From Allobosea sp. (GTDB lineage: Bacteria > Pseudomonadota > Alphaproteobacteria > Rhizobiales > Beijerinckiaceae), in assembly GCF_017308075.1 (NCBI RefSeq), contig NZ_JAFKFX010000036.1, forward strand, positions 83,147 to 147,146: 64,000 nucleotides of DNA, read 5' to 3'. Positions 32,115 through 45,862 of this stretch are shown piece by piece (positions within the stretch are counted from its first letter, which is position 1; every line of letters starts with the position of its first letter). Below the pieces are notes generated by a model. It made no database searches, had not been told where the DNA came from, and saw only the letters and a program-made list of their open reading frames with translations. The position numbers and the translations under genes are program-made.

Positions 32115-32242
32115 GGGCACGCTTCGATCCCGTTCGCGGAGTGGCGATTGCGCCGGGTGCGACGCTAGGCCGGTTTGATTCCGTCCCGGCTTTTGCCGAG
32201 AAGCGGCGGCGCGCCCGAGCGCCTCAGTTTCAGGATAGTCCG

Positions 32243-32913: not shown

Positions 32914-33306
32914 ATGCCTTCGCTCAGCCTGCGCATCGATCTCGATCGCGAAACCCGCATCGGTCCCGGTAAGATCGAACTGCTCGAAACCATCGCGGCT
33001 TGCGGTTCGATCTCGGCCGCGGGGCGCGAAATGGGCATGTCCTATCGTCGCGCCTGGGATCTCGTCGAGGCGCTCAACCGGGTCTTCGGCAAGCCGGTCG
33101 TCGTGCGCCAGGTCGGCGGCAAGAGCGGCGGTGGAGCCCATCTCACCGCGCTCGGCCTGGCACTGGTCGCGCATTATCGCGCCATCGAGCAGGCGGCCTC
33201 GGCCGCGGCGCAGCCCCATCTCGCCGCGATTCAGGCGGAGCTCGACCGATCGGGCGCGGACGAGCCGGACAACGCAACGGCAGGGGTGACGACCTCCGGC
33301 CCCTGA
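32914..33306 (+). CDS. ModE-like winged-helix regulator without molybdate-binding domain
   Basis: A 130-residue protein matching only the N-terminal DNA-binding domain of ModE: KIELLETIAACGSISAAGREMGMSY, RRAWDLVEALNRVFG and GGKSGGGAHLTALG. The C-terminal TOBE (Mop) domains are absent, and no mod transport genes are nearby. It may sense through another partner or regulate molybdenum genes elsewhere. The 109 bp to the next gene show nothing notable. Confidence 0.85.
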   Translation: MPSLSLRIDLDRETRIGPGKIELLETIAACGSISAAGREMGMSYRRAWDLVEALNRVFGKPVVVRQVGGKSGGGAHLTALGLALVAHYRAIEQAASAAAQPHLAAIQAELDRSGADEPDNATAGVTTSGP

Positions 33307-33415
33307 AGCAGGGCTGGCTGGAGGTTTTGGCGCCGGCCAGCGCATGAACGCCAGCGCTTCACCGGACGGTTTCCTGACCGCCGCCGGGCAGCCGCGCCGG
33401 ATGGTCCCCGACGGA

Positions 33416-34210
33416 TCAGTAGCCGGCGCTCTTGCCCGGCGCCGCGCGGAAGGGCTCGATCGCGGCCCGCAATTGCCGGATCATCAAGCCGACATCCGAG
33501 CCCAGCCCGATCATGCCGAACCCCTGTTCTCGGCGCCTGGCGATGTCGTCGGCGCTCGTGCCGATGACGCCGGAGGCGATGCCGCGCGCGGCCGCCAGCT
33601 GCTGCATGCGCAGGATGTCCTCGGCGATGCCCGGTCCTTCCCAGACGGCGAGATGGCCGAAGCTCTGCGACAGATCGGAAGGCCCGAAGAAGATCGCCTC
33701 CAGCCCCGGGACTGCGAGGATATCGGCGATGTTGCTGGAGGCGTCTGCGGTCTCGATGACCGGGATCACCATTGTCTCCTCGTTCGACGCTGCGACATAG
33801 CTCTCCATCGCCATGCCCCAGCGCAGCGCCCGCTCATGGCCGAGCCCGCGCTTGCCGGAGGGGGGATAGCGGGCATGGACGAACGCTTCGGCGAGTTCAT
33901 CGGCCGTGCGGATCAGCGGCAGCAAGACGCCATGGGCGCCGAGATCGAGCGCGCGCTTGATCGTGTCGACCGAGGCCGTTGGCACGCGCACGATCATGGC
34001 GAGATCGCTGCCTTTCGCGGCGCGGAGATGATCGACCACGTCGCGATAGCCGAGGCTGCCATGCTCCATGTCGACGCAGACCCAGTCGAGGCCGAGCTCG
34101 GCGGCGACCTCGGTGACGGTCGCGCTTTCGAGCGTGGCCCAGAGCCCGATCGTCGATCCGCCGGATTTCAGCTTCCGGCGCAGCGGATTCGAGAAAGACT
34201 GTGACGGCAT
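33416..34210 (-). CDS. HpcH/HpaI family aldolase
   Basis: A 264-residue class II (metal-dependent) 2-oxo acid aldolase. Motifs are LGLDWVCVDMEHG, GAHGVLLPLIRTADE, PVIETADASSNI and FGPSDLSQSFG, with metal-binding Glu and Asp. Relatives cleave 4-hydroxy-2-oxo acids to pyruvate or glyoxylate plus an aldehyde. It is the last gene of the leftward acid-sugar operon, 26 nt after dctM. GGAGG precedes ATG 34210; the longer open frame upstream reads through dctM in another frame and was rejected. Confidence 0.9.
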   Translation of the reverse strand: MPSQSFSNPLRRKLKSGGSTIGLWATLESATVTEVAAELGLDWVCVDMEHGSLGYRDVVDHLRAAKGSDLAMIVRVPTASVDTIKRALDLGAHGVLLPLIRTADELAEAFVHARYPPSGKRGLGHERALRWGMAMESYVAASNEETMVIPVIETADASSNIADILAVPGLEAIFFGPSDLSQSFGHLAVWEGPGIAEDILRMQQLAAARGIASGVIGTSADDIARRREQGFGMIGLGSDVGLMIRQLRAAIEPFRAAPGKSAGY

Positions 34211-34236
34211 GGTGGCCTCCGACGGTCCGGCTCTGC

Positions 34237-35526
34237 CTAATTCAGCAGGAGCCGCGGCAGGATCAGGGATATTTCCGGGAAGTAGGTGATCAGCAGCAAG
34301 GCGACCACCAGCGGCACATAATACGGTGCGACCGCCACCAGTGCCTTGTTGATCGGCACGTCCGCGACCTTCGCGACGGCGAAGAGCACCATGCCGACCG
34401 GAGGGGTCAGCAACCCGATCATCAGGTTCAGCACCATCATGATGCCGAAATGCACGGGATCGACGCCGACCGCGACCGCCAGGGGCAGCAGCATCGGCGT
34501 GAAGATGGTGATCGCGGCATTGGTCTCCATGAACAGGCCGATCACCAGGAGGAAGATGTTGATCGCCAGCAGCAGCGTGACCGGAGAGAGATCGAGCCCG
34601 CCGACGAGCGCGACCAGTTGCTGCGGGATCTGGGTGAAGACCAGCAGCCAGCCATAGAGCGCGGCGGCCGCGAGGATCATCATGATGACGGCCGTCTCGC
34701 GCATGGTCTCGCGCAGAACCTGGAACAATTGCGCCAGGGTGATCTCGCGATAGACCAGCATGGCGATGACGATCGCGTAGACGGCCGCGATGGCAGCGGC
34801 CTCTGTCGGGGTGAAGACGCCGCTCATCATGCCGCCGATGATGATGGCGGGCGTGAACAGCGGCGGGAGCGCCCTGAAGAAGCTGCGGACCAGCGCCGCG
34901 AAGCCAAGCCATTTCTGCGTCGGCAGCTGGCGGCGATGCGCCTGCCACCAGACCAGCATCATCAGCAGGACGCCCATCAGCAGGCCGGGCAGGATACCGG
35001 CGATCAGCAGCGCGGTCGCCGAGACATTGGCGACGACGGCATAGATGATCAGCGGGATGCTGGGCGGAATGATCGGGCCGATCGTCGCCGAGGCCGCCGT
35101 GACGCCGACCGAGAAATCGTCGGGGTAGCCGGCCTGCCGCATCGCCCGGATCTCGACCTGGCCGACGCCGACCGCGTCAGCGACCGCCGAGCCGGACATG
35201 CCGGAAAAGATGATCGAGGCGGCGATGTTGACCTGGCCGAGGCCGCCGCGCATGTGGCCGGCGATGCGATCGGCGAACTCGTAGATGCGGTCGGTGATGC
35301 CGCCGGTATTCATGATCTTGCCGGCCAGGATGAAGAACGGGATCGCCAGCAGTGGGAAGCTGTTGACGCCATAGACCATGCGCTGGGCCAGGATGGTGTA
35401 GGGGATGCCGTTGATGCCGCGCTCCACGAGCGTGACGATCAGCGAGGACAGGCCGAGCGCGAAGGCTGCGGGAATGCCGATGACGAAGAGAGCGAGCAGG
35501 CCGCCGATGAAAAGCGCCAGGATCAT
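34237..35526 (-). CDS. dctM: TRAP transporter large permease DctM
   Basis: A 429-residue, 12-helix TRAP permease. Signature stretches are VNSFPLLAIPFFILAGKIMN, GMSGSAVADAVGVGQVEI, GPIIPPSIPLIIYAV and GLLTPPVGMVLFAVAK. It imports a dicarboxylate, sugar acid or similar anion, driven by the Na+ or H+ gradient. ATG 35526 overlaps the dctQ stop (ATGA), so the two are coupled. Confidence 0.95.
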   Translation of the reverse strand: MILALFIGGLLALFVIGIPAAFALGLSSLIVTLVERGINGIPYTILAQRMVYGVNSFPLLAIPFFILAGKIMNTGGITDRIYEFADRIAGHMRGGLGQVNIAASIIFSGMSGSAVADAVGVGQVEIRAMRQAGYPDDFSVGVTAASATIGPIIPPSIPLIIYAVVANVSATALLIAGILPGLLMGVLLMMLVWWQAHRRQLPTQKWLGFAALVRSFFRALPPLFTPAIIIGGMMSGVFTPTEAAAIAAVYAIVIAMLVYREITLAQLFQVLRETMRETAVIMMILAAAALYGWLLVFTQIPQQLVALVGGLDLSPVTLLLAINIFLLVIGLFMETNAAITIFTPMLLPLAVAVGVDPVHFGIMMVLNLMIGLLTPPVGMVLFAVAKVADVPINKALVAVAPYYVPLVVALLLITYFPEISLILPRLLLN

Positions 35527-36026
35527 GATGTGGTTCCTTTGGCGCGGCCGGCCATGTGCATCGCCCGCTCGAACATGTCGAGCAGCAGCAGGAAGGTCAT
35601 GACGAGCATCGAAATGCCGACGGCTGCGTAGATGTAGCCCGTGCGAAACCAGTCCATGGTCGCCGTGTAGGTCTCCCAGGTCGCATTGGTCAGCAGCCAG
35701 CAGCCATAGGCGACCGAGAGCAGGAACCAGGAGATCAGAAGATCGACGAGCATGGCCACGGCATCGGCCGAGCGTCCGGAGACATAGCCGTCGATGATGT
35801 CGACCCGGATATGCTCGCGATTCATCAGGATGACGACGCCGCCGAAATAGGTGGTGAGCACGCAGGTGAGGCGTGCCAGCTCCTCCGTCCATTGCAGTGG
35901 CGCATTCAGGACATAGCGGAAGAAGACCTGCAGTACCGAAGACGTGATCATGATCAGGAATGCAGAAATCGCGAGTGTTTCAAAGACGAGATAGATCGTC
36001 CTTCGGATACCTTTTTCCGGGGCCAT
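35523..36026 (-). CDS. dctQ: TRAP transporter small permease DctQ
   Basis: A 167-residue four-helix protein with DctQ features: FFRYVLNAPLQWTEELAR and MNREHIRVDIIDGYV. It pairs with DctM. ATG 36026 follows GGAG; GTG 36029 is an alternative. Confidence 0.93.
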   Translation of the reverse strand: MAPEKGIRRTIYLVFETLAISAFLIMITSSVLQVFFRYVLNAPLQWTEELARLTCVLTTYFGGVVILMNREHIRVDIIDGYVSGRSADAVAMLVDLLISWFLLSVAYGCWLLTNATWETYTATMDWFRTGYIYAAVGISMLVMTFLLLLDMFERAMHMAGRAKGTTS

Positions 36027-36095
36027 CACATTCTCCAGGCTGCCTCAGATTCCGGGCCGCGACGAGAAGCAAGCGCCCCTCGCCGCGACGCGCGC

Positions 36096-37073
36096 TCATT
36101 TCAGGTATTTGGAGACGGCCTGGACGACGCTCGGTGCCCAGTTCTTCGAGAGTTCATCGATGGCGGGGCGAGCCTTGGCGATGAAGGGCGCGCGGTCGAC
36201 CTTGATCGCGGTCATCTTGTTCTTCTCCACTAGCGCGTTGCAGACGCCGTCGATCTGCTGCTTGGTGATCTCGTCGCCATATTTGGCGGCATCGACGGCC
36301 GAGCTGACGACGGCCTCGCGCAGTGCCGGGCTCAGGCTGTCGAGAAAGCGCGAGCTGATCGTCCAGTGCCAGACGGCCGGGACATGCGCCGTATAGATCA
36401 GGTGCGATTGGACCTCGTAGAGCTTGGCCTGGTTGATGTTGAAGCAGGGATTTTCCTGCGCCTCGATCACGCCCATCTGCAGGCCGCTGAATACTTCCGG
36501 CCAGGCGACGGGCGTCGGCCGGGCGCCGAGCTCGGACCAGACCCGGACCCAGGAGGGAATTTCCGGCACGCGCAGCTTCAGGCCCTTCAGGTCGTCGGGC
36601 GTCTTGATCGGCTTCTTGGCGGACAGGTGGCGGTCGCCGCGGCGGAAGAAGGCCACGAGGTCGAGCTTGGCCTTGTCCTTGATGAGCTTCTTGCCTTCGG
36701 CACCGGCCGAACTCGCCCAGAACTCGAAGATCTCTTCCGGTCCGGGGAACACGAAGGGCACGACGGTCGCGGCATAGGGCGGGGCGACGACATTCGGCAG
36801 CGTATCGCCGAACAGTGTCATCTGGACTTCGTTCACCGTCAGCTGTTCGAGATTGTCGCGCTCGCCGCCGAGCACGGCCGAATGGAAGATCTTGACGTTG
36901 ATCTCGCCCTTGCTGCGCTCCTTGACCAGTTCGACGAACTTGTCGACCGCCTGGAACTCGGGTCCCGGCGGCGAGGTGTGCATGGCGAAGCTGAGATCGA
37001 GGGCCTTTGCCGCCGGGGCGGCAAGCAGCATTCCGAGCACCAGGACAGATGCCGTCAGCTTGTTCTTGAGCAT
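36096..37073 (-). CDS. dctP: TRAP transporter substrate-binding protein DctP
   Basis: A 325-residue periplasmic binding protein with a signal peptide cleaved near AKA-LD. The family's carboxylate-binding Arg lies in LKGLKLRVPE, followed by PEVFSGLQMGVIEAQENP. The substrate is unknown; the gene neighbourhood suggests a four- or five-carbon sugar acid. An A-rich leader and GGAGG precede the ATG. A 92-bp gap to the previous gene may hold a separate promoter. Confidence 0.93.
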   Translation of the reverse strand: MLKNKLTASVLVLGMLLAAPAAKALDLSFAMHTSPPGPEFQAVDKFVELVKERSKGEINVKIFHSAVLGGERDNLEQLTVNEVQMTLFGDTLPNVVAPPYAATVVPFVFPGPEEIFEFWASSAGAEGKKLIKDKAKLDLVAFFRRGDRHLSAKKPIKTPDDLKGLKLRVPEIPSWVRVWSELGARPTPVAWPEVFSGLQMGVIEAQENPCFNINQAKLYEVQSHLIYTAHVPAVWHWTISSRFLDSLSPALREAVVSSAVDAAKYGDEITKQQIDGVCNALVEKNKMTAIKVDRAPFIAKARPAIDELSKNWAPSVVQAVSKYLK

Positions 37074-37165
37074 TGGTAGTCCTCCCTGTGTTGATTTTTC
37101 CTGCCTGTTTCGGCTTTTGCTCGCGTTTTCTTGTTTTTATCGGCCACGACGCTGCGATGGCCGGG

Positions 37166-37561
37166 TCATGTGCTGCCGGCGACCTCCGCGGCTTCCTTGA
37201 CGCTCTGGCCGACCGCGAGGCCCTTCTGCCGCGCGGTATTGCTGACGGCGCTGAGCACGCCGCTCAGCCAGGCATCCTGCGCGTCCCCGATCCGGGCCGT
37301 GTCATGCGAGGTGGTGGCGCAAGCGATGCCCTTGGCGTCGAGCATTGCGAGCGCGGCACGTCCGGCGCCGGCCTTGCCTCCGCCGGCGTCGCTGAAGACG
37401 ACCAGATGCGGCGGATGCAGCGCCGCGAAGGCACCCGAGATCAGCCCGCCATGCGAACCGCAAATGATGATCGCCCCCTTGTCCTGCGGTGCGATCAGCG
37501 AGATCGAATCCATCAGCACGACGCGATGGCCGGCGATATCGGCGACGGTCTCGTTCCTCAT
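37166..37561 (-). CDS. Conserved protein of unknown function, tandem paralogue B
   Basis: A 131-residue soluble protein. Key motifs are GSHGGLISG, VVFSDAGGGKAGAG and TTSHDTARIGDAQDAWLSG, then SAVSN near the C-terminus. The adjacent upstream gene encodes a paralogue with the same motifs in the same order. No signal peptide or membrane segment. The start ATG 37561 overlaps the upstream stop by 4 nt. Together they may form a heteromeric enzyme or binding protein for an acid-sugar intermediate; I recognise no named family. Confidence 0.8.
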   Translation of the reverse strand: MRNETVADIAGHRVVLMDSISLIAPQDKGAIIICGSHGGLISGAFAALHPPHLVVFSDAGGGKAGAGRAALAMLDAKGIACATTSHDTARIGDAQDAWLSGVLSAVSNTARQKGLAVGQSVKEAAEVAGST

Positions 37562-37986
37562 GGCCGGCCTCCGAAGATGCGGCGCACGGCCTGGCCGACC
37601 GGCTCGCCGAGTGCGAACCCGGCCTTTTCCGCCAAGGGATTGAGGGCTGACACCAGGCCCGATTGCCAGGTCTCGAGCGCGTTGCCGATCAGCGCGCTGT
37701 CGTGCGAGACGGTGCCGGCGATGATGCCGCGCGCCTCGAGATAGGGCAGCGAGGCGATGCCGGCATTCTCCTTGCCGATGCCGGCATCGTTGAAGAACAC
37801 GGCGGCGATCGGTACTTTGCCGGCATATTCGCCGGAGCTGATGCCGCCATGCGAGCCGGTCATCACCACCTGGCCGGCGTCCTCGGGCTTGAGATGCGCG
37901 ATCGTATCGACGGCGACGACGCGGCGGCTGCCGACCGTCGCGACGATCTCGCGCAGCATGACGAAATCGGGCTGTGCGGCGCTCAT
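37558..37986 (-). CDS. Conserved protein of unknown function, tandem paralogue A
   Basis: A 142-residue soluble protein sharing with its downstream neighbour the motifs GSHGGISSG, VFFNDAGIGKENAG, TVSHDSALIGNALETWQSG and SALN. The His in GSHGG, the Asp-Ala-Gly with a following Gly-Lys, and the SHD triad are identical in both and look functional. It overlaps genes on both sides by 4 nt (ATGA), so it is tightly built into the acid-sugar operon. Function unknown. Confidence 0.8.
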   Translation of the reverse strand: MSAAQPDFVMLREIVATVGSRRVVAVDTIAHLKPEDAGQVVMTGSHGGISSGEYAGKVPIAAVFFNDAGIGKENAGIASLPYLEARGIIAGTVSHDSALIGNALETWQSGLVSALNPLAEKAGFALGEPVGQAVRRIFGGRP

Positions 37987-38891
37987 GACCCGTACTCCCC
38001 GCCAAGGCCCGACATTTCCTGCATCAGGAGGGCGAGCGCGGAATTGTCGAGATCGGCGCGGCCGGTATTCGAAAGCACGCCGTAGAGCTGCTGGATCAGC
38101 GCCGTAGCCGGCAGGGCGGTGCCGGTCGCACTGCCGTTCTCCAGTGCCAGCTTCAGGTCCTTGCGCTGGAGCGTGACGCGAAAGCCGGCGGCGAAATTGC
38201 CGTCGAGCACGCGCTGACCGTGTAGGTCGAGCGCCTTGCTCTGGGCGAAGCCGCCGAGCAGCGCCGAGCGGATCTTGCCCGGGTCGACGCCGTTCTTGCG
38301 CGCCAGCGTCATCGCCTCGGCGACCGCCTGAATGTTGATGGCGACCGCGACCTGGTTGCAGACCTTGCAGACCTGGCCGGCACCGGGCCCGCCGATATGG
38401 CTGATGGTCTTGCCCATCGCCTCCAGGACCTTGCGGCAGCGTTCGAGTACCGCGGCGTCGCCGCCGATCATGATCGACAGCGTCGCGTTCTCGGCGCCCT
38501 GATAGCCGCCGCTGACCGGGGCATCGAGCATGGCGACACCCTTCGCCGCCAGCGTCTCGGCCATGGCCCGGGTTGCCATTGGCGAGATCGAGCTCATATC
38601 GATCAGCACGCTGCCCGGCCGCATGGCAGAGGCGAGCCCGCCCTCGCCAAGCACGACGGCTTCGACATCCGGCGTGTCGGGCAACATGGTGATGACGATG
38701 TCGGCAGCGCCGGCCGCCGCGGTGGAGCCGGCATCGCTCGCGCCTGCCGCGACCAGTTCGGCCACGGCGGCGCGGTCGAAGTCGTGCACGGCGAGGGGAA
38801 AGCCGGCCTTGCGTAGATTGAGCGCCATGCGGCGCCCCATGACGCCGAGGCCGATGAAGCCGATCTTCTGCGCTTGGGAGCTGGTCGTCAC
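37983..38891 (-). CDS. Beta-hydroxyacid dehydrogenase (3-hydroxyisobutyrate/L-threonate dehydrogenase-like)
   Basis: A 302-residue NAD(P)-dependent dehydrogenase. The dinucleotide motif is GFIGLGVMGRRMA; the substrate loop is DAPVSGGYQGAENATLS; the catalytic Lys lies in GAGQVCKVCNQ. Members adjacent to DUF1537 kinases, such as LtnD, oxidise tetronates at C2. The GTG at 38891 with AGGGG upstream gives a normal length; the longer frame overlaps the SDR gene. Confidence 0.9.
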   Translation of the reverse strand: MTTSSQAQKIGFIGLGVMGRRMALNLRKAGFPLAVHDFDRAAVAELVAAGASDAGSTAAAGAADIVITMLPDTPDVEAVVLGEGGLASAMRPGSVLIDMSSISPMATRAMAETLAAKGVAMLDAPVSGGYQGAENATLSIMIGGDAAVLERCRKVLEAMGKTISHIGGPGAGQVCKVCNQVAVAINIQAVAEAMTLARKNGVDPGKIRSALLGGFAQSKALDLHGQRVLDGNFAAGFRVTLQRKDLKLALENGSATGTALPATALIQQLYGVLSNTGRADLDNSALALLMQEMSGLGGEYGS

Positions 38892-38901
38892 GGCCCGCCC
38901 C

Positions 38902-39696
38902 TCAATGGGTCTTGCAGTGCAGGCCGCCATCGACGCAAAGGTCGATGCCGGTGATGTATTTGGATTCGTCCGAGGCCAGGAAGAGCGCGGCGTAGGCGAT
39001 GTCCCAGCCCTCGCCCATGCGCTTCATCGGCGTCACCTCGGCACGCTTGCGCTGCATCTCCGTGAAGTCGGTGTAATGCGCCTTCATCGCCTCGTAGATG
39101 TGCGGCGTGTCCATCAGACCGGGCAGCACGGTATTCGCCCGGATGCCCTTCTCGGCATATTGCATCGCAATCGCCCGGGTGAAGTGATTCACCGCCGCCT
39201 TCGAAGCGTAATACGAAATATAGTTGAAGTGCATCCAGCGGATCGAGGCCAATGACGATATGTTGACGATCGAACCGGAGCCCTGCGCTTCCATGATCGG
39301 CAGGACGCATTTGCAGGTGAAGAACATGCTCTTCAGGTTCACGTCCATGACGCGATCCCATTGTTCTTCCGTCATATCGACCGGGCCGCCTTCGATATTC
39401 ATGCCGACATTGTTGTGCAGCACATCGATGCGGCCCCAGGTCGACTTCACGGTGTCGACGACTTCGCGCACGCGATCGAGATTGACGACATCGGCCTGGA
39501 GCGCCAGCGCGGTGCCGCCCTCGCTCTCGATGATCTCCTTGGTGCGCTCGGCGGCGGCGAGATTGAGGTCGACGCAGGCGACCTTGGCGCCTTCGCGGGC
39601 GTAGAGCACGGCAGAGGCCTTGCCGTTGCCCCAGCCCTCGCCCACCGAGCCTGCGCCGAATACGAGCGCGATCTTGTTCTCCAGGCGCCTAGACAT
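38902..39696 (-). CDS. SDR-family NAD(P)-dependent dehydrogenase
   Basis: A 264-residue classical SDR. The cofactor site is FGAGSVGEGWGNGKA (an expanded variant of GxxxGxG), followed by LHNNVG and the catalytic ISSLAS...YYASK (Tyr-x3-Lys). The C-terminal YITGIDLCVDGG is standard. It likely oxidises a hydroxyl of the sugar acid or its lactone. It lies 10 nt before the beta-hydroxyacid dehydrogenase gene and 36 nt after the RLP gene. Confidence 0.92.
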   Translation of the reverse strand: MSRRLENKIALVFGAGSVGEGWGNGKASAVLYAREGAKVACVDLNLAAAERTKEIIESEGGTALALQADVVNLDRVREVVDTVKSTWGRIDVLHNNVGMNIEGGPVDMTEEQWDRVMDVNLKSMFFTCKCVLPIMEAQGSGSIVNISSLASIRWMHFNYISYYASKAAVNHFTRAIAMQYAEKGIRANTVLPGLMDTPHIYEAMKAHYTDFTEMQRKRAEVTPMKRMGEGWDIAYAALFLASDESKYITGIDLCVDGGLHCKTH

Positions 39697-39732
39697 CTGC
39701 TTTTCGTCTCCGATGAGTTCCAGAACCAGCGG

Positions 39733-40989
39733 TCATTTGGCGTGCCGCTCGAAGGTCTCGACCGCGCGTTTCAGCGCGGGCATCTCCTTGGCGGCCGTCG
39801 CGAGCGGAATGCCGGCGCGTGCCGCTTCCCAGGCGGCGCGCAGCGCACGGGTGCCGGCGGCGATGCCGTCGGGATGGCCGACGATGCCGCCGCCGCAGGC
39901 GTAGATCAGGTCGGTGGTGCGCAGCGCGGCGTAGGTGTCGTGGACCTGGAGCACGGTCTGCGCGCTCGACAGCACCGGCATGATGCGCGGATCGGCTTCG
40001 TTCAGCGGCGTCAGGCAGGCGCGGGCCGAGGCCAGAACCGATTCGTCGCTCTCGGCGAACTTGTTGCGCAGGCCGTTGACATGGATGTGGTCGACGCCGG
40101 CGAGACGGTGGATGAGCTGGTAGACGCGATAGTCGAAGCCGAGCATCGGCGCGCGCGAGAACAATGCCCAGCCATTGCGATGGCCATGGATGAAGAGCGG
40201 GAACTCGCGGCGCAGCGCCAGCACGGCCGGCGTTCCGACCCAGTTGAGGCTGAGCATGGCGCAGTCGCCGCCGGCCTTCAGGATCGCCTCGGCACCGCGG
40301 CGCATCTGGTCAAGGTCGCCGGTGATGTTGAAGGCGAACATGATGCGCTTGCCGGTGCGGTCGGCATGGCGCTCGATTGCGCCCATCACTGCCGCGATGC
40401 GCTGCTCCAGCGGGGCGAAGAGCGGGTTCGCGCTGAGTTCGTCATCCTTGATGAAGTCGATGCCGCCCTCGGCGAACTCCGCGACGACCTGAGCTGTGTC
40501 CTCCGGCAGCAGGCCGATGCTCGGCTTGACGATGGTGCCGATGGCTGGAAGCCCGTCGAGGCGCAGGCGTTCGTGCGTGCCGGCGATGCCGAAGCGCGGG
40601 CCGGGAAAGGCGTGGACGAAATCGTCGGGCAGCTCCAGATCGAGGAGGCGGATGCCGGAGAGCTCGCTCAACTCGCCGAGATTGCCGCAGATCGTCGCCA
40701 TCAGGGTCTGCAGATCCGGCCCGACATTGGCATAGGGCCAGGCGATCTCGACGCGCGCCTGCGTGTAGCGCGCCCGGCCGGAGGCCCGCGCGCCCGGCAG
40801 GCTCGGTACGGGGACCTCGGCCAGGCGTTCGATCCTTGCGACGCGGGCGCCGGCCCGCGCCGTCACCGCATCGGTCTCGGAGGCGAGCTTCATGAAGGTG
40901 CCGGTCGATTGCTCGCTGGCGATGGCGGCGGCCGTCTGCTCGACGGGCAGCGGCGTCTCGATCAGGTAATGGGCGCGAATCTCGGTCAT
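39733..40989 (-). CDS. RuBisCO-like protein (RLP), probable acid-sugar phosphate decarboxylase or hydrolase
   Basis: A 418-residue form IV RuBisCO-like protein. The active-site motif is GGIDFIKDDE with the carbamylatable Lys181 and metal ligands Asp183 and Glu184, all retained as in true RuBisCO. TIVKPSIGL replaces the catalytic TIIKPKLGL, with Lys155 kept. FIHGHRNGW (about 267-274) and a phosphate-loop-like GGGIVGHP follow. RLPs with intact KDDE in acid-sugar operons act on 3-oxo acid phosphates, for example in D-apiose catabolism; here the DUF1537 kinase would supply that substrate. ATG 40989 gives MTEIRAHYL, but a GTG at 41034 overlaps the upstream stop and cannot be excluded. Confidence 0.9.
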   Translation of the reverse strand: MTEIRAHYLIETPLPVEQTAAAIASEQSTGTFMKLASETDAVTARAGARVARIERLAEVPVPSLPGARASGRARYTQARVEIAWPYANVGPDLQTLMATICGNLGELSELSGIRLLDLELPDDFVHAFPGPRFGIAGTHERLRLDGLPAIGTIVKPSIGLLPEDTAQVVAEFAEGGIDFIKDDELSANPLFAPLEQRIAAVMGAIERHADRTGKRIMFAFNITGDLDQMRRGAEAILKAGGDCAMLSLNWVGTPAVLALRREFPLFIHGHRNGWALFSRAPMLGFDYRVYQLIHRLAGVDHIHVNGLRNKFAESDESVLASARACLTPLNEADPRIMPVLSSAQTVLQVHDTYAALRTTDLIYACGGGIVGHPDGIAAGTRALRAAWEAARAGIPLATAAKEMPALKRAVETFERHAK

Positions 40990-41001
40990 GATATTGATAT
41001 G

Positions 41002-41014
41002 AGGTATGATGTCT
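41002..41014. promoter_or_regulatory. Candidate GntR operator, copy 1 (upstream of the RLP)
   Basis: AGGTATGATGTCT, an imperfect palindrome centred on G41008 (8 of 12 flanking positions symmetric), lies 13 bp before the RLP ATG. The same 13-mer occurs at 41847-41859. Confidence 0.35.
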
Positions 41015-41030
41015 CTGGTGCGATGAAGGC

Positions 41031-41792
41031 TCACGGTTCCATGACGTCGCCGCCGCTCACCACCAGCGTGTGGCCGGTGATGAAGGCGGCGCGCTCGGAG
41101 AGCAGGAAGGCGACGCTCTCGGCGATCTCGGCCGGCTGGCCGAAGCGTCCCAGCGGCATCGCCGCGAGCCGCGTCGGCAGCAGGGTCTGGTCGAGGCGAC
41201 CGAGCATGTCGGTGTCGGTGAGCCCTGGCGCGACGGCGTTCACCCGCACATGCGGCGCCAGCGCCTCGGCGAAGCAGCGCATCATCGCGACGACCCCGGC
41301 CTTGGCGGCGGAATAGTCGATCTGGCGCGAGCGCGGTCGCAGTGCCGCGATCGAGCTCAGGCAGACAATGCTGCCGAAGCCCTGCGCCAGCATCTGGTCC
41401 TTGACCTGCTGGATGGCGATGAAGACCCCGTCGAGATTGACGCGAACCGTTTCGCGGAACTGGTCGAGCGTCAGTTCGGAGTGGTGGCGCGGGCCGGTGG
41501 TGCCGGCATTGGCGACGAGATAGGAGATCGGCCCCAGCCGTTCATTTGCGGCGTTCACGGCTGCGGCAAAGGCGGCCTCGTCGCCGACATCGGCCTGGAA
41601 CAGCTCGCAGATGCCGCCCGCCGCCTCCACCATCGCTTTGGTCTCGGCTGCGGCCGCATGATTGGCGGCGTAGTTGAGCGCGATCTTCGCGCCACCCGCT
41701 GCGAGCCGCAGGCAGCAGGCACGGCCGATGCCTCGCGCTCCACCGGTGACCAAGGCAAGCCGACCGGCAAATTCCGGCGCGATCTCCGTCAT
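41031..41792 (-). CDS. SDR-family oxidoreductase, first gene of the leftward acid-sugar operon
   Basis: A 253-residue classical SDR with TGGARGIGRA, VANAGTT, the catalytic Ser in CLSSIAAL, Tyr-x3-Lys in DYSAAKAG and GHTLVVSGGD at the end. It is the gene nearest the GntR regulator and divergent from it, so it probably starts the operon. Substrate unknown; an oxidation feeding the kinase/RLP steps is likely. Confidence 0.92.
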   Translation of the reverse strand: MTEIAPEFAGRLALVTGGARGIGRACCLRLAAGGAKIALNYAANHAAAAETKAMVEAAGGICELFQADVGDEAAFAAAVNAANERLGPISYLVANAGTTGPRHHSELTLDQFRETVRVNLDGVFIAIQQVKDQMLAQGFGSIVCLSSIAALRPRSRQIDYSAAKAGVVAMMRCFAEALAPHVRVNAVAPGLTDTDMLGRLDQTLLPTRLAAMPLGRFGQPAEIAESVAFLLSERAAFITGHTLVVSGGDVMEP

Positions 41793-41846
41793 TGCGTCTC
41801 CAACCCTGTCCGCTTGCCGCTCATTGACGGCTCGTCTTTTCGTTAA

Positions 41847-41859
41847 AGGTATGATGTCT
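41847..41859. promoter_or_regulatory. Candidate GntR operator, copy 2 (between SDR and GntR genes)
   Basis: The second copy of AGGTATGATGTCT, in the divergent promoter region. It contains TATGAT (41850-41855), a good -10 element for the rightward GntR-kinase transcript, so binding would block transcription. A TTGACG at 41824-41829 is a possible -35 with a rather long 20-bp spacer. Confidence 0.45.
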
Positions 41860-41931
41860 TGCCTTTTGAAAGGCTGTCAAGCTAAGTCTTGGCGAAAGAG
41901 CGGGCCGGTCAGCCCGCAGGCAGGTGAGACC

Positions 41932-42696
41932 ATGGACGCCGGAACAGGCCGCCAGGACATGATGAACGGCAGGGGCAAGAAGCAGCTCAGCCGCCTCGAA
42001 CTCGTCCTCGAACACATCAAGCAGCGCATCGCCGACGGCTCGCTCAGGCCGGGCGACCAGCTGCCGCCGGAGCTGGAACTGGCGCGGGAGCTGGGCTTGA
42101 GCCGCACGCCGGTGCGTGAGGCGGTCAAGGTGCTCGCGGCGGCCGGCGTCCTGATCGTGAAGCACGGCCACGGCACCTTCGTCAGCGCCGGCGCCCAGGC
42201 TTCCCTCGGCCAGCTTCTGCTGTTCGAGATCTACATGAAAGATACGACGCCGCAGAAGCTGATGGAGGTGCGGCTGCTCTTCGAGCGCGCCTGCGCCGAA
42301 CTCGCCGCTCAGCGACGGACCGAGGCGGATCTCGCGGAGATGCGTGCCTGTATCGAGCGGCTGCGCCCGCTCGCCGGCGCCGATCCGATCGATTTCGACG
42401 CGACGGTCGAGGCCGACCTCGCCTTCCACCGCGCGATCTACCGCGCCGCCAAGAACGAGCTGGTTGAGACGCTGGCGAACTTCGTGCTGACCATGGTCTC
42501 GGGCTGGCTGCGCCGCTCGCACGCCCATGGCGGGCTCGCCGACACGGTGCGGCTGCACGAGATCATGTACACGATGATCGAGACGCGCAATTCCGGCGGC
42601 GCGCGCGAGGCCTATGGCGCCGAGGTCAATATGGAGCATTTCCGCAGGATTCTCGAGCAGATGGGAGCCCGAGAGGACGAGGCTGATCGCGGATGA
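41932..42696 (+). CDS. GntR-family regulator (FCD type) of the acid-sugar cluster
   Basis: A 254-residue regulator: winged helix (LSRLELVLEHIKQRIADGSL, RPGDQLPPELELARELGLS, RTPVREAVKVL) and a FCD domain (EADLAFHRAIYRAAKN with metal-binding His, LHEIMYTMIETRN). ATG 41932 has AGGTGAG upstream; the further in-frame sequence overlaps the divergent promoter. It likely represses both the leftward operon and its own kinase operon. Its stop overlaps the kinase start by 4 nt. Confidence 0.92.
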   Translation: MDAGTGRQDMMNGRGKKQLSRLELVLEHIKQRIADGSLRPGDQLPPELELARELGLSRTPVREAVKVLAAAGVLIVKHGHGTFVSAGAQASLGQLLLFEIYMKDTTPQKLMEVRLLFERACAELAAQRRTEADLAEMRACIERLRPLAGADPIDFDATVEADLAFHRAIYRAAKNELVETLANFVLTMVSGWLRRSHAHGGLADTVRLHEIMYTMIETRNSGGAREAYGAEVNMEHFRRILEQMGAREDEADRG

Positions 42697-44003
42697 GCGG
42701 GCCGGCCATCTGCTTCTACGGCGACGATTTCACCGGCGCCTCCGAGAACCTCGCGCAGTTCCACAAGCACGGCCTGCGCTGCCGGCTCTACTTCGAGCCT
42801 GCCGATCCGCAGCGTGTCCGCGCCGAGGCGGCGGAGCTCGATGTCATCGGCATCGCCGGCGTCGCCCGCTCGCGCGCACCCGACCAGATGCGCTTGCTGC
42901 TCGGCGATGCGTTCCGGCTGTTCGGGTCGCTCGGCACCCGGCTCAACCAGTTCAAGATCTGCTCGACTTTCGATTCCGCGCCGCAAACCGGCAATTTTTC
43001 CGTCGCGATCGCCGAAGCGCTCAAGGTCTGGCCGGAGGCCTTGCTGCCGGTGCTGCCCGCCACGCCGGATTTCGGCCGCTACACCGCCTTCGCCAATCAT
43101 TTTTCGCGACATCGCGGCGAGATTCTGCGGCTCGATCGCAATCCGGCGCTGGTCGAGCATCCCTCGACACCGATGAACGAGGCTGATCTGCGCCGCCATC
43201 TCGCCAATCTTGGCGTCGAGGCGACGGCCGCGATCATGCTGCCGGAGCTCGGCCAGGATCGCGAGGCGCTCGCCCGGCTGATCGAGCAGCGCGGGGCCGG
43301 CGCCGTCCCGGTCGTGCTCGACACCGTCGACAATGCTCAGCTCGGCCATGTCAGCCGCGCGATCTGGCAGCTCGCGGCGAGGCGCGATGTGTTCAGCCTG
43401 GCGGCGCAGGGGCTCCCGCAAGGCCTCGGCGGCGCGGTTGCCGCCCACCTCGGCCGCAGCGCGGAACTGTCGTCTGGCCGGGTGCAGGACGGTCCGGGGC
43501 TCGTACTCTCGGGTAGTTGCTCCGCCCAGACCGCCGTCCAGCTCGCGGCGGCGGAAGCGGCGGGCTGGACCCTGATGCATCTGCCGATCGAGCGGCTCAC
43601 CTCAAGCGACGACGCGCAGCGCGCCGTCGCGGCCGTGGCTCCCACGATGGTCGCGGCCCTGCGCGCCGGCCGCTCGACCGCGGTCTTTACTGCGCGCGGC
43701 GAGGTCACGCAGGCTTTCGACCTCGCCCGCGCGCCCAGCGTTGGCCTCGCGCTCGCCGAGCTGTTCCGGCAGGCCGTGGGCGAAGCGGGGCTGCGGCGCG
43801 TCATCTTTGCCGGCGGTGACAGTTCGAGCTTTGCGATGCGCAGCTGCGGGGCCTATGCGCTCGAGATCGCGGCCTCCAGCGGCCAGCAGGCCAGCCATGT
43901 CTGCGCCCTGCTGGCCGATGACGAACTCAATGGCGTCGAGGTCGTCCTCAAGGGGGGGCAGGCGGGCAGCGACCGCTTCTTCCTCGATCCGATGTCAGGC
44001 TGA
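42693..44003 (+). CDS. Four-carbon acid sugar kinase family protein (DUF1537)
   Basis: A 436-residue kinase of the DUF1537 family, which phosphorylates 3-oxo-tetronates, D-threonate/erythronate, or 3-oxo-isoapionate. The N-terminal substrate domain starts ICFYGDDFTGASENL and includes CSTFDSAPQTGNF; the C-terminal nucleotide domain has VLSGSCSAQT, FAGGDSSSFAM and VVLKGGQAGSDRFF. It is coupled to GntR by an ATGA overlap and faces the RLP operon, whose substrate it probably makes. Confidence 0.92.
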   Translation: MSGPAICFYGDDFTGASENLAQFHKHGLRCRLYFEPADPQRVRAEAAELDVIGIAGVARSRAPDQMRLLLGDAFRLFGSLGTRLNQFKICSTFDSAPQTGNFSVAIAEALKVWPEALLPVLPATPDFGRYTAFANHFSRHRGEILRLDRNPALVEHPSTPMNEADLRRHLANLGVEATAAIMLPELGQDREALARLIEQRGAGAVPVVLDTVDNAQLGHVSRAIWQLAARRDVFSLAAQGLPQGLGGAVAAHLGRSAELSSGRVQDGPGLVLSGSCSAQTAVQLAAAEAAGWTLMHLPIERLTSSDDAQRAVAAVAPTMVAALRAGRSTAVFTARGEVTQAFDLARAPSVGLALAELFRQAVGEAGLRRVIFAGGDSSSFAMRSCGAYALEIAASSGQQASHVCALLADDELNGVEVVLKGGQAGSDRFFLDPMSG

Positions 44004-44032
44004 GGCGCGCCGGCGCATAGGCGGTCTGCTCC

Positions 44033-44052
44033 GGCCCGCATCAATGCGGGCC
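44033..44052. terminator. Hairpin between convergent kinase and B12-mutase genes
   Basis: An 8-bp GC-rich stem (44033-44040 with 44045-44052) closes a TCAA loop in the 62-bp space between the two convergent genes. Confidence 0.5.
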
Positions 44053-44065
44053 CGGATCCCGCGTG

Positions 44066-45862
44066 TCACATCGTCCGCCGGTCAGGTCGAGCCCGGTTGG
44101 GGCCGGCCAAGGCGCTCAGCTCCGCGACCAGGCGCTCTGGCGAGATGCAGGGAATGGCCCCGATCCTGGCGAGATCATCGGTGACGTCGACCGGCAGGCC
44201 GGAGTTCGAATCCTCGGGGATTTGGTTGAGGCGCCCGCCGATGCAGACCGGCAGGCTGGCGCCGGCGCGTTCGAGCGCCGCCAGCACCTCGGTCGCGAAG
44301 CGCAGGGCGATGCCATTATAGGTGCTGATCGCGATCACGTCGCAGCCATTCGCCAGGGCGATGGCGACGAGGTCGTCGGGATCGGCCGAGGTGCCACCAT
44401 CGACCGGCTCGGCCTTGAGCTGGGTCAGGAGATGCTCGATCAGGCTCTTGCCGTGCTCATGCACGTCGCTGCTGGCGACGCAGACCTTGAGCCCCGCCTG
44501 GCCGATGCCGCTGCGAACCGGCGCCGCGACCTTGTCGAGCCAGGCTTCGGTCTCATGGCGGAGCTCCTCGACCCATTCGGCCTCGACGAGCGCTCGGCGT
44601 CCGCCCCAGGCGGCGCGGTCCTGCGTCCCGACGCCGTAGAGCGCTTCCAGCCGTCGTGGGCCGATACGGCGCAGAGCCAGCATGGTGGCGGCGGGATCGC
44701 GGATGTCGACGCCGATCTGCGCAAGCCCGGCAAGGACACGGTCGCGGAACTGGCGTGCACCGGCGACGAGCTTTGCCGCCATCGCATCGACCGGCGCGAG
44801 ATCGATCAGGCCGAGGCTGGCGGAGGCATGCTCGACCAGCTTTCCAGCGAAGGTCTGGGCGTCGATGATCTCGTCGGTGTCGGGAATGCGCTCGTTCTCG
44901 GTGACCGGCACCGGGTTGATGGCGTGGCCGCTGTGCTGCCGGCGCAGCGACCAGATATCGGCCTGGAGATAGCTGGCGAGGCTGGCGAAATTGCCGGCCG
45001 GGGTCGACTTGTAGCTGACCGTGTTGCCGAAGATCATGCTGCCGGGCGTGTCGGTCACCTGCATCAGTGCGTGATGGAAGGCGAGCCGCACCAGCGGCGC
45101 CGTGAAATGATGGCCGTAGCAATGCGAGGCGCGGGCGCCGATCAGTTCCTCGACGATGTATTTCTCGACCAGCACCATGCCGAGCGCCGAGCTCATGTCG
45201 GAGAAAAGGCCGGCGAAGCCGTCGTCGAGATTGGAATGGACGAGAACCTCGACCGGCTGGGCCGCGATCAGGCCGAGCGCGGTCACGGTCGCCTCGGTCG
45301 TCGCGACGTCGTCGTCCCAGTCGGGCAGGCGGAAGGTGAAGTACTGGCCGAGATTGCCGACCGTGGTGACGCCCGCCGCTAGGGCCGCACGCGTATTCTC
45401 GACGGCCCCGGGAAGCCCGAGCATGAAATCGCCGAAATGCGCCGCGGCTGGGACGACGCCGGTGATGCGGGCGAAATCCTCCGGCCCGGTCAGCACGATG
45501 CCGGTGCCGCGCGGGCGCTTGTCGCGCTCGGCGATAGGATAGCCCATCGACCAGTCGAGGGTGATGCCGAAGCGGTCGACGGTGACGCCGCGCCCGGCAC
45601 AGCTCTCATACACGCTGCGGATCGCCTCCAGCGTGCGTTCGACGCTGCGAAAGCCGATATGGGCGTGCTGCATGATCCGGCCTTCGGCGGCCGTGCGGCG
45701 CTTGTAGTCGGCCTCGCAGGCGACCCGCGCCGTATCGAGGAAGAGATTGCGGCCGACCTGCCAGTCGCGCGCCATTACGGCGCCTTCGGTGAGCAGCTCA
45801 TGGCCCGGTCGCAGCCGCGGCGGGACGAGGTCGGCGAGCGGTGGCAAGACAGGCACGGTCAT
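44066..45862 (-). CDS. Fused cobalamin-dependent mutase-like protein (barrel plus B12-binding domain)
   Basis: A 598-residue protein. Residues about 1-440 resemble the catalytic barrel of glutamate (methylaspartate) mutase epsilon subunit, with GFRSVERTLEAIRSVYES and GHHFTAPLVRLAFHHAL. The C-terminal 140 residues are a B12-binding domain: DVHEHG (466-471) is the DxHxxG motif whose His replaces the lower ligand of cobalamin, followed by AISTYNG and CIGG (542-543). In glutamate mutase these are two chains; here they are fused. It probably catalyses a radical carbon-skeleton rearrangement. Substrate unknown; the adjacent aspartate-dehydrogenase-like gene hints at an amino acid. Confidence 0.8.
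   Translation of the reverse strand: MTVPVLPPLADLVPPRLRPGHELLTEGAVMARDWQVGRNLFLDTARVACEADYKRRTAAEGRIMQHAHIGFRSVERTLEAIRSVYESCAGRGVTVDRFGITLDWSMGYPIAERDKRPRGTGIVLTGPEDFARITGVVPAAAHFGDFMLGLPGAVENTRAALAAGVTTVGNLGQYFTFRLPDWDDDVATTEATVTALGLIAAQPVEVLVHSNLDDGFAGLFSDMSSALGMVLVEKYIVEELIGARASHCYGHHFTAPLVRLAFHHALMQVTDTPGSMIFGNTVSYKSTPAGNFASLASYLQADIWSLRRQHSGHAINPVPVTENERIPDTDEIIDAQTFAGKLVEHASASLGLIDLAPVDAMAAKLVAGARQFRDRVLAGLAQIGVDIRDPAATMLALRRIGPRRLEALYGVGTQDRAAWGGRRALVEAEWVEELRHETEAWLDKVAAPVRSGIGQAGLKVCVASSDVHEHGKSLIEHLLTQLKAEPVDGGTSADPDDLVAIALANGCDVIAISTYNGIALRFATEVLAALERAGASLPVCIGGRLNQIPEDSNSGLPVDVTDDLARIGAIPCISPERLVAELSALAGPNRARPDRRTM

Follow-up and report, generated by a model that had tools for sequence, protein, structure and literature searches.

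This study concerns a gene cluster built around a RuBisCO-like protein (RLP) and a DUF1537 kinase in Allobosea sp. (assembly GCF_017308075.1, contig NZ_JAFKFX010000036.1). The whole stretch of DNA analyzed, 64,000 nucleotides from positions 83,147 to 147,146 of that contig, is called the window, and all coordinates below are window positions. The cluster sits on the contig that we designate C6 of the 5.55-Mb genome. Ten genes form a leftward operon from 41792 to 33416, in the order SDR-family dehydrogenase 1 (SDR1), RLP, SDR2, beta-hydroxyacid dehydrogenase (HADH), the small paralogues SHGG1 and SHGG2, the TRAP transporter proteins DctP, DctQ, and DctM, and an HpcH/HpaI aldolase; a GntR/FCD regulator gene and the DUF1537 (four-carbon acid sugar kinase family) gene form a pair divergent from it. 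The initial annotation, made from the DNA letters, had given the same order and strands. Several neighboring cluster genes overlap by a few bases. Pfam scores were far over the cut-offs for the RLP, dehydrogenases, DctP, HpcH, GntR, and kinase; for DctQ and DctM, the names come from similarity and position. We conclude that the cluster is real, with central chemistry of a known kind and a gene combination that looks new. Literature searches found no paper describing this cluster, and the word "undescribed" is bounded by those searches.

The RLP gene (39733–41034, minus strand) encodes 433 amino acids when read from a GTG codon, and comparison with homologues makes the ATG at 40989 the better start. 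The protein scored 226.7 bits against PF00016. Its best NCBIfam match was OiaX (NF042437), the 3-oxo-isoapionate-4-phosphate decarboxylase known from Agrobacterium radiobacter K84, at 439.5 bits and under the curated cut-off of 700, which was passed by the RLPs of two plasmid loci, L188 of Rhizobium phaseoli (759.0) and L189 of Agrobacterium (731.3). The initial annotation had named a methionine-salvage clade as a placement that would refute its proposal; the score for the methionine-salvage enolase MtnW (TIGR03332) was 149.9 against a cut-off of 513.6, and this identity was ruled out. Identity as a RuBisCO carboxylase was also discarded, as the protein has S instead of K177 and scored 222.8 against a cut-off of 438 for PRK04208.

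Active-site residues were compared at 14 positions by alignment to a form I RuBisCO taken from a family relative; the numbers and roles of these residues are those of spinach RuBisCO. The window RLP keeps E60, N123, K175, K201, D203, E204, H294, R295, H327, K334, S379, G403, and G404. The sole replaced position is 177, where K has become S, a residue common to 94 of the 95 RLPs grouped as the rest. The KDDE motif is intact, as initially annotated, and aligns with RuBisCO K201–E204. Among the 117 RLPs compared, seven make up the OiaX clade: L188 and L189 by their scores above the cut-off, and L028–L032 by tree position. All seven have D60, G123, A177, and Q327, together with C or G at 379; D60, G123, A177, and Q327 are clade residues as defined in the present comparison, not by a published definition. 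The 110 non-OiaX RLPs have E60 in 109 cases, N123 in 109, and H327 in all. This split suggests that residues needed to hydrate and cleave were lost in the OiaX clade, the simple decarboxylases, whereas the window RLP may still be capable of both steps. It also offers a testable sequence rule, based on E60, N123, and H327, for decarboxylase versus hydrolytic cleavage.

The retained RuBisCO residues would also fit an oxygenase that splits a phosphorylated keto sugar with O2, as reported for an RLP of the D-hamamelose pathway (PMC8914248; PMC10176493). No hamamelose-specific gene was recognized, in a comparison made without a hamamelose RLP sequence, and we consider an oxygenase very unlikely.

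Two trees were built from the RLPs, a quick one of 110 rows, lacking L165, and a careful one of 59 chosen rows. In the careful tree the window RLP grouped with those of Halomonas sp. A40-4 (L053) and of genome G776 (L165) with support of 95/84, and was closer to the apionate-linked clade than to OiaX. An approximately unbiased (AU) test rejected its grouping with OiaX, both alone (p-AU 7e-36) and with the Halomonas pair (p-AU 0.001). Membership in OiaX was thus rejected by score, clade test, and residues. The window RLP also has all the residues typical of the apionate-linked clade (E60, N123, K175, S177, KDDE, HR, H327, K334, S379, and GG). Because it keeps E60, N123, and H327, which the OiaX clade lacks, OiaT-type hydrolytic C–C cleavage is a better guess than decarboxylation for the window RLP. 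The initial annotation had left the choice between decarboxylation, its leading reading, and hydrolysis; with the OiaX clade rejected and the residues kept, the former has become less likely, and hydrolysis is the more likely of the two. RLPs that decarboxylate or that transcarboxylate and hydrolyze 3-oxo-isoapionate 4-phosphate were published in 2018 (as cited in PMC6302742).

The kinase (42693–44003, plus strand) has both DUF1537 family domains over the gathering score (PF07005, 140.1 against 25; PF17042, 79.4 against 28.3). Its best NCBIfam match was OiaK (NF042436), with 246.9 against a cut-off of 700 that was passed by no kinase scanned, the highest being 584.8 in locus L098; it scored 120.9 against a cut-off of 350 for 3-oxo-tetronate kinase. 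The nearest curated functions of the kinase and RLP, OiaK and OiaX, are consecutive steps, which bears out the earlier statement that the two come from families acting in sequence on 3-oxo acid sugars. A quick kinase tree of 99 rows contained a five-row group with an SH-aLRT of 100, apart from the other 94, consisting of the kinases of the window, L053, L165, L188, and L189; the last two come from the OiaX-bearing plasmid loci. In L053 and L165, as in the window, the kinase gene and a regulator gene point away from the RLP gene. At an E value of 1e-62, window kinase orthologues were found in one genome besides its own among 398 of the phylum sample and in none besides its own among 385 of the class sample; this kinase subtype therefore looks rare. 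No same-genus genome besides its own matched at that threshold, in samples that both cover the genus thinly. At L188 (1629–17307), the OiaX-annotated RLP gene belongs to a run that also encodes a beta-keto acid cleavage enzyme, an ABC transporter, and a DUF1537 kinase from the window subclade; adjoining this run, the plasmid has its own copies of the genes for transketolase, FBPase, FBP aldolase, TIM, and an RpiB-like isomerase.

These kinase relationships bear on the possibility that the RLP is, after all, a simple decarboxylase like OiaX, which would convert a phosphorylated 3-oxo acid to a ketose phosphate and, with a linear tetronate, would replace OtnC and yield dihydroxyacetone phosphate. 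OiaX is the top-scoring model for the window RLP and likewise for the other scanned RLPs, and the OiaX-bearing loci, with those of Halomonas, have the nearest kinases found. The absence of a class II aldolase, claimed in the initial annotation, also fits: PF00596 occurs at four places in the genome (contigs C12, C28, C52, and C61), none of them on the contig of the window. Set against this are the score below the OiaX cut-off, the exclusion from the OiaX clade, and the differences at residues 60, 123, 177, 327, and 379, including residues missing in all seven members of that clade. We judge simple decarboxylation to be unlikely.

The tetronate pathways with OtnK, OtnC, and OtnI and DUF1537 kinases, reportedly described by Zhang et al. 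in 2016, resemble the cluster in having a DUF1537 kinase follow a hydroxyacid dehydrogenase. They differ in their class II aldolase, OtnC, and in the kinase, which falls below the 3-oxo-tetronate kinase cut-off in the window; no operon gene resembles the isomerase OtnI by eye, with no OtnI model run. An OtnC-type route was set aside because the contig lacks a class II aldolase; a linear tetronate substrate remains compatible with the cluster.

Neighborhoods of other RLP genes were surveyed, as the initial annotation had proposed for the RLP and DUF1537 pair. Of 35 other RLP places found, 20 loci were fetched, 19 from family relatives and one the second copy of the genome itself, and a DUF1537 gene was beside the RLP in every one. 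Together with the best 80 of 554 confirmed stretches they gave 100 comparison loci, from Proteobacteria, Acidobacteria, Verrucomicrobia, Bacteroidota, Chloroflexota, Bacillota, haloarchaea, and others. A DUF1537 match was present in 94 of these, in 91 at more than 100 bits; the six loci without one were L077, L084, L085, L108 (which ends at the RLP), L123, and L125. The pairing of RLP and DUF1537 is therefore not new in kind but the rule in this RLP family. The earlier impression of an unfamiliar combination does not hold for the pairing, which is the core of the published D-apiose and apionate pathways. The window pair is a distinct subtype, outside the curated OiaX and OiaK families, with an RLP that has two Halomonas-type relatives and with SDR and hydroxyacid dehydrogenases instead of apionate genes.

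An ApnO-like gene (PF16896, >200 bits) or an ApnL-like gene (>150 bits) was near the RLP in 61 of the 100 comparison loci, which ties the majority of the sampled RLPs to D-apionate use. The curated ApnL cut-off of 750 was exceeded in Ancylobacter L098 (859.3) and Bosea L114 (838.2). We take the PF16896 proteins to be ApnO and the Xanthobacter RLP to be the transcarboxylase/hydrolase OiaT. The OiaT-type D-apionate pathway of Xanthobacter autotrophicus, consisting of ApnO, OiaK, and the RLP transcarboxylase/hydrolase, was reportedly described by Carter et al. in 2018. The window resembles such systems in its RLP and DUF1537 kinase, in the position of its RLP next to the ApnO/ApnL-associated clade, and in the residues at the 14 compared positions. 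It differs in that neither ApnO nor ApnL was matched within the 19 kb around its RLP, in having SDR and hydroxyacid dehydrogenases, HpcH, and SHGG, in the kinase subclade, and in the long branch that its RLP occupies with two relatives.

The remaining operon genes, all on the minus strand, supply dehydrogenases, a transporter, and an aldolase. SDR1 (41031–41792) is FabG-like, with 189 bits against PF13561, and scored no more than 155 bits against any comparison locus. SDR2 (38902–39696; PF13561, 217.6 bits) is the conserved one, with relatives above 250 bits in 13 of the 100 RLP loci, two of these 13 rows being one Alsobacter locus. HADH (37983–38930) is tartronate-semialdehyde-reductase-like and just missed the TIGR01505 cut-off (333.2 against 340.75); its structural matches were PDB 9rb2 and 1vpd. 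DctP (36096–37073; PF03480, 208.5 bits) is the substrate-binding protein of the TRAP system, DctQ (35523–36029) is an open reading frame placed as the small permease from its position between DctP and DctM, and DctM (34237–35529) matches annotated large permeases of the haloarchaeal loci L185 and L187. The nearest solved DctP chains are 4pc9/4pcd, 4p47, and 4pdh, several of which bind aldonates or tetronates; aldonate transport is suggested on this basis. The GarL/HpaI-like HpcH aldolase (33416–34213) scored 121.8 bits against PF03328, matched PDB 4mf4 and 1dxe, and has a 402-bit Alsobacter relative. Enzymes of the GarL/HpaI type yield pyruvate and an aldehyde.

On balance, we favor the reading that the cluster serves the uptake and breakdown of an aldonic-type acid sugar, with OiaT-like cleavage by the RLP. 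Direct observations cover the gene content, the protein families, the kinase-RLP linkage in many genomes, the tree placements, the active-site residues, and the repeated occurrence of the set. We infer every reaction, the order of the reactions, and the substrate class: oxidation to a 3-oxo acid from the dehydrogenases present, phosphorylation from the kinase family, and C–C cleavage from the RLP family, with an OiaT-type outcome favored by the residues and the tree. The TRAP system would import the acid sugar, and SDR2, perhaps with SDR1 and HADH, would oxidize it to a 2-hydroxy-3-oxo acid, whose far hydroxyl would be phosphorylated by the DUF1537 kinase. The RLP, with a predicted Mg-carbamate site and a nearly full set of RuBisCO residues, would then cleave the 3-oxo-acid phosphate by OiaT-like decarboxylation and recarboxylation followed by hydrolysis. 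The expected products are 3-phosphoglycerate and a small hydroxy acid; from 3-oxo-isoapionate 4-phosphate or a similar substrate, the latter would be glycolate. The small fragment is probably processed by HpcH and by the reductase-like HADH, both of which could work on two- and three-carbon pieces, and SHGG may act on a pathway intermediate.

Several observations weigh against this reading. The cluster contains no ApnO, and the sole PF16896 gene of the genome is on contig C20. SDR2 relatives occur together with ApnO in 3 of their 13 loci (L044, L047, and L048), so SDR2 is not simply an ApnO substitute. In the kinase tree the window protein stands with those of OiaX-bearing loci and apart from those of apionate-linked loci, which pulls toward OiaX-type substrates. 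The apionate-linked residue set is shared by nearly all non-OiaX RLPs and is hence not specific for the OiaT type. The window RLP is a long branch in both trees (1.17 and 0.98), and the quick tree left its position unresolved. We know of no activity for any member of its subclade, and the apionate-linked clade is only presumed to be OiaT. Finally, in the related gene sets described below, the haloarchaeal HpcH and SDR proteins scored only 111–127 bits against those of the window and the Alsobacter HADH 159, so that these need not be orthologues.

The combination of TRAP, HpcH, SDR, SHGG, RLP, and kinase genes recurs in Alsobacter and in three haloarchaeal plasmids, in agreement with the initial proposal that HpcH and the SHGG pair mark a variant. 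Alsobacter soli has genes for an HADH-like protein, HpcH, DctPQM, RLP, kinase, SHGG, and two SDR proteins within ~10 kb, its HpcH and SDR2 relatives scoring 402 and 316 bits against the window proteins. A plasmid search found SHGG in 13 records, five of them haloarchaeal. SHGG was beside the RLP and kinase in all four haloarchaeal plasmids read; in the fifth, Haloterrigena KLK7, match coordinates show an SHGG domain that precedes the RLP by 0.55 kb. TRAP, HpcH, SDR, and ApnO-like genes are also present in three of the four (Haloterrigena pHTS220, Haloarcula JP-L23, and Natrinema SYSU A 869), with the shared set in ~10 kb; the fourth, from Natronosalvus, has an SDR gene and no TRAP, HpcH, or ApnO match in the stretch. 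Two more haloarchaeal RLP plasmids among 40 listed of 304, from Halalkalicoccus and Natronococcus, had no SHGG match. The haloarchaeal clusters differ from the window in having SHGG as one two-domain gene, an ApnO-like gene, and an IclR regulator, and the RLPs of two of the three (L185 and L187) lie in another branch of the tree. The RLPs of the recurring sets occupy separate parts of the tree, so it looks as if the set was put together or exchanged with more than one kind of RLP. On the Natrinema plasmid (L190, 9912–12557), a single open frame of 882 residues spans both RLP and kinase and is possibly a natural fusion, although the annotation covers only a short RLP piece.

The ApnO-like genes in three of these four haloarchaeal clusters, and the presence of SHGG together with ApnO in L044, L055, and L105, would fit ordinary D-apionate catabolism, in which the window would supply transport, kinase, and an OiaT-type RLP, and ApnO would act in trans from another contig. 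The C20 gene is the one ApnO-like candidate in the genome. It is a lone gene beside a peptide-type ABC transporter, with no RLP or kinase matches in the 19.5 kb examined (L204, C20:36500–56000). This placement speaks against such a partnership, as do the missing ApnL around the window RLP, the position of the window kinase outside the apionate-linked group, and a second RLP-kinase-TRAP locus that could use the C20 gene instead. We find the in trans explanation doubtful. That second locus, L052 on contig C30, encodes an RLP 47% identical to the window RLP, adjoining its own DUF1537 kinase and TRAP genes; the residue at 177 is N, as in its six nearest relatives. Five of six other same-genus genomes also have an RLP, all of this other type, 47–48% identical to the window RLP and grouping with the C30 copy.

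SHGG1 (37558–37986, minus strand; 142 amino acids) and SHGG2 (37166–37561, minus strand; 131 amino acids) share an ATGA overlap and are 44% identical. Neither had a Pfam or NCBIfam match at an E value of 0.01. Relatives were found in 31 of 289 genomes of the class, the genome itself included (~11%), with at least two matches in 30 of the 31. Translated relatives are mostly a single gene of ~270 amino acids with two tandem copies, as against two genes in the window, and the motifs SHGG, NDAG, and RIGD are common to the family. Weak DUF1805 (PF08827) matches, 18.3–27.2 bits against a cut-off of 29.5, appeared in four relatives and not in the window pair. A structure model built from five sequences (mean pLDDT 87.5) gave no PDB match in Foldseek at E ≤0.001, and TM-scores to the query were ≤0.35 among the 50 matches listed; a PDB sequence search with a two-domain relative gave one weak match (E 0.11). 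By these comparisons SHGG is an unnamed, usually two-domain family.

SHGG occurred in 6 of 101 RLP loci, namely the window, L035 and L117 (one Alsobacter locus), L044, L055, and L105. With SHGG in ~11% of genomes and 19 kb being ~0.5% of a genome, a rough base rate from one class only, ~0.05 SHGG-bearing loci would be expected by chance per 100 loci, against four independent ones besides the window. These counts bear on whether a TRAP-HpcH-dehydrogenase operon and an unrelated RLP/kinase pair lie side by side by chance. HpcH was matched in only 6 and SHGG in only 5 of the 100 comparison loci, one Alsobacter locus counted twice in each, as chance would allow. The RLP gene, however, is inside the operon between both SDR genes, and the set recurs in Alsobacter and the haloarchaeal plasmids; a chance arrangement is most improbable.

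In 19 SHGG loci of class relatives (L166–L184), an acetolactate-synthase-like thiamine pyrophosphate (TPP) enzyme was near the two-domain SHGG gene in 12 and an E1 alpha/beta pair in 13, and a TRAP large permease (>190 bits) was present in 4. These loci would represent another pathway, without an assigned role. The acetolactate-synthase-like enzyme was absent from all RLP-linked SHGG loci, and the E1-like genes of the window, at 58.9–61.3 kb, are distant from the cluster. A speculative and rather unlikely extension is an RLP pathway common to Proteobacteria and haloarchaea, in which SHGG, as an enzyme of new fold, would process a 2-hydroxy-3-oxo acid made by a dehydrogenase, before phosphorylation and RLP cleavage through release and recapture of CO2. 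Such a role would explain the TPP enzymes and E1 subunits as neighbors. The cluster also gives a context to SHGG, a family found repeatedly alongside acid-sugar and TPP enzymes in roughly one-tenth of the sampled class genomes. The RLPs themselves, few of which have an assigned reaction, are an example of CO2-fixing chemistry reused for sugar-acid breakdown.

The regulator gene (41932–42696, plus strand; PF00392 and PF07729), with a start read from the sequence, overlaps the kinase gene by 4 bases. Between it and the operon is a divergent intergenic region of 139 bases (41793–41931), which contains a promoter-like TTGACA-18-CATCAT at 41880–41851 on the minus strand. A perfect 14-base palindrome, GCCTTTTGAAAGGC, lies at 41861–41874, inside the spacer region of that site, and is a possible operator. 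Because two promoter-like sites were found in the ~11 kb scanned (33200–44150) against a mean of 1.1 in shuffled sequences, this promoter and operator evidence is weak and only suggestive. An Rfam scan of 33.0–47.5 kb gave zero matches over the gathering score.

The left boundary was examined through an SCO1-like gene at 32141 and one stretch (L208), which gave no settled edge. On the right, a block beyond 44.07 kb (B12-domain protein, NadX-like, cupin, and ABC transporter genes) is present in 3 of 20 other same-genus genomes, and the window cluster genes are absent from the ~8 kb read beside the block in those three. Because it stands there without the cluster, the block was rejected as a cluster part; the right boundary is real, and the cluster is a separate unit on that side. 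The first gene of the block (44066–45862, minus strand) encodes a protein of 598 amino acids whose one recognized domain is a C-terminal B12-binding domain (31.7 bits against a cut-off of 32.1). Beside it lie the NadX-like gene, the cupin gene, and a peptide-type ABC transporter (named by eye), and its close relatives in the three same-genus genomes are 90% identical.

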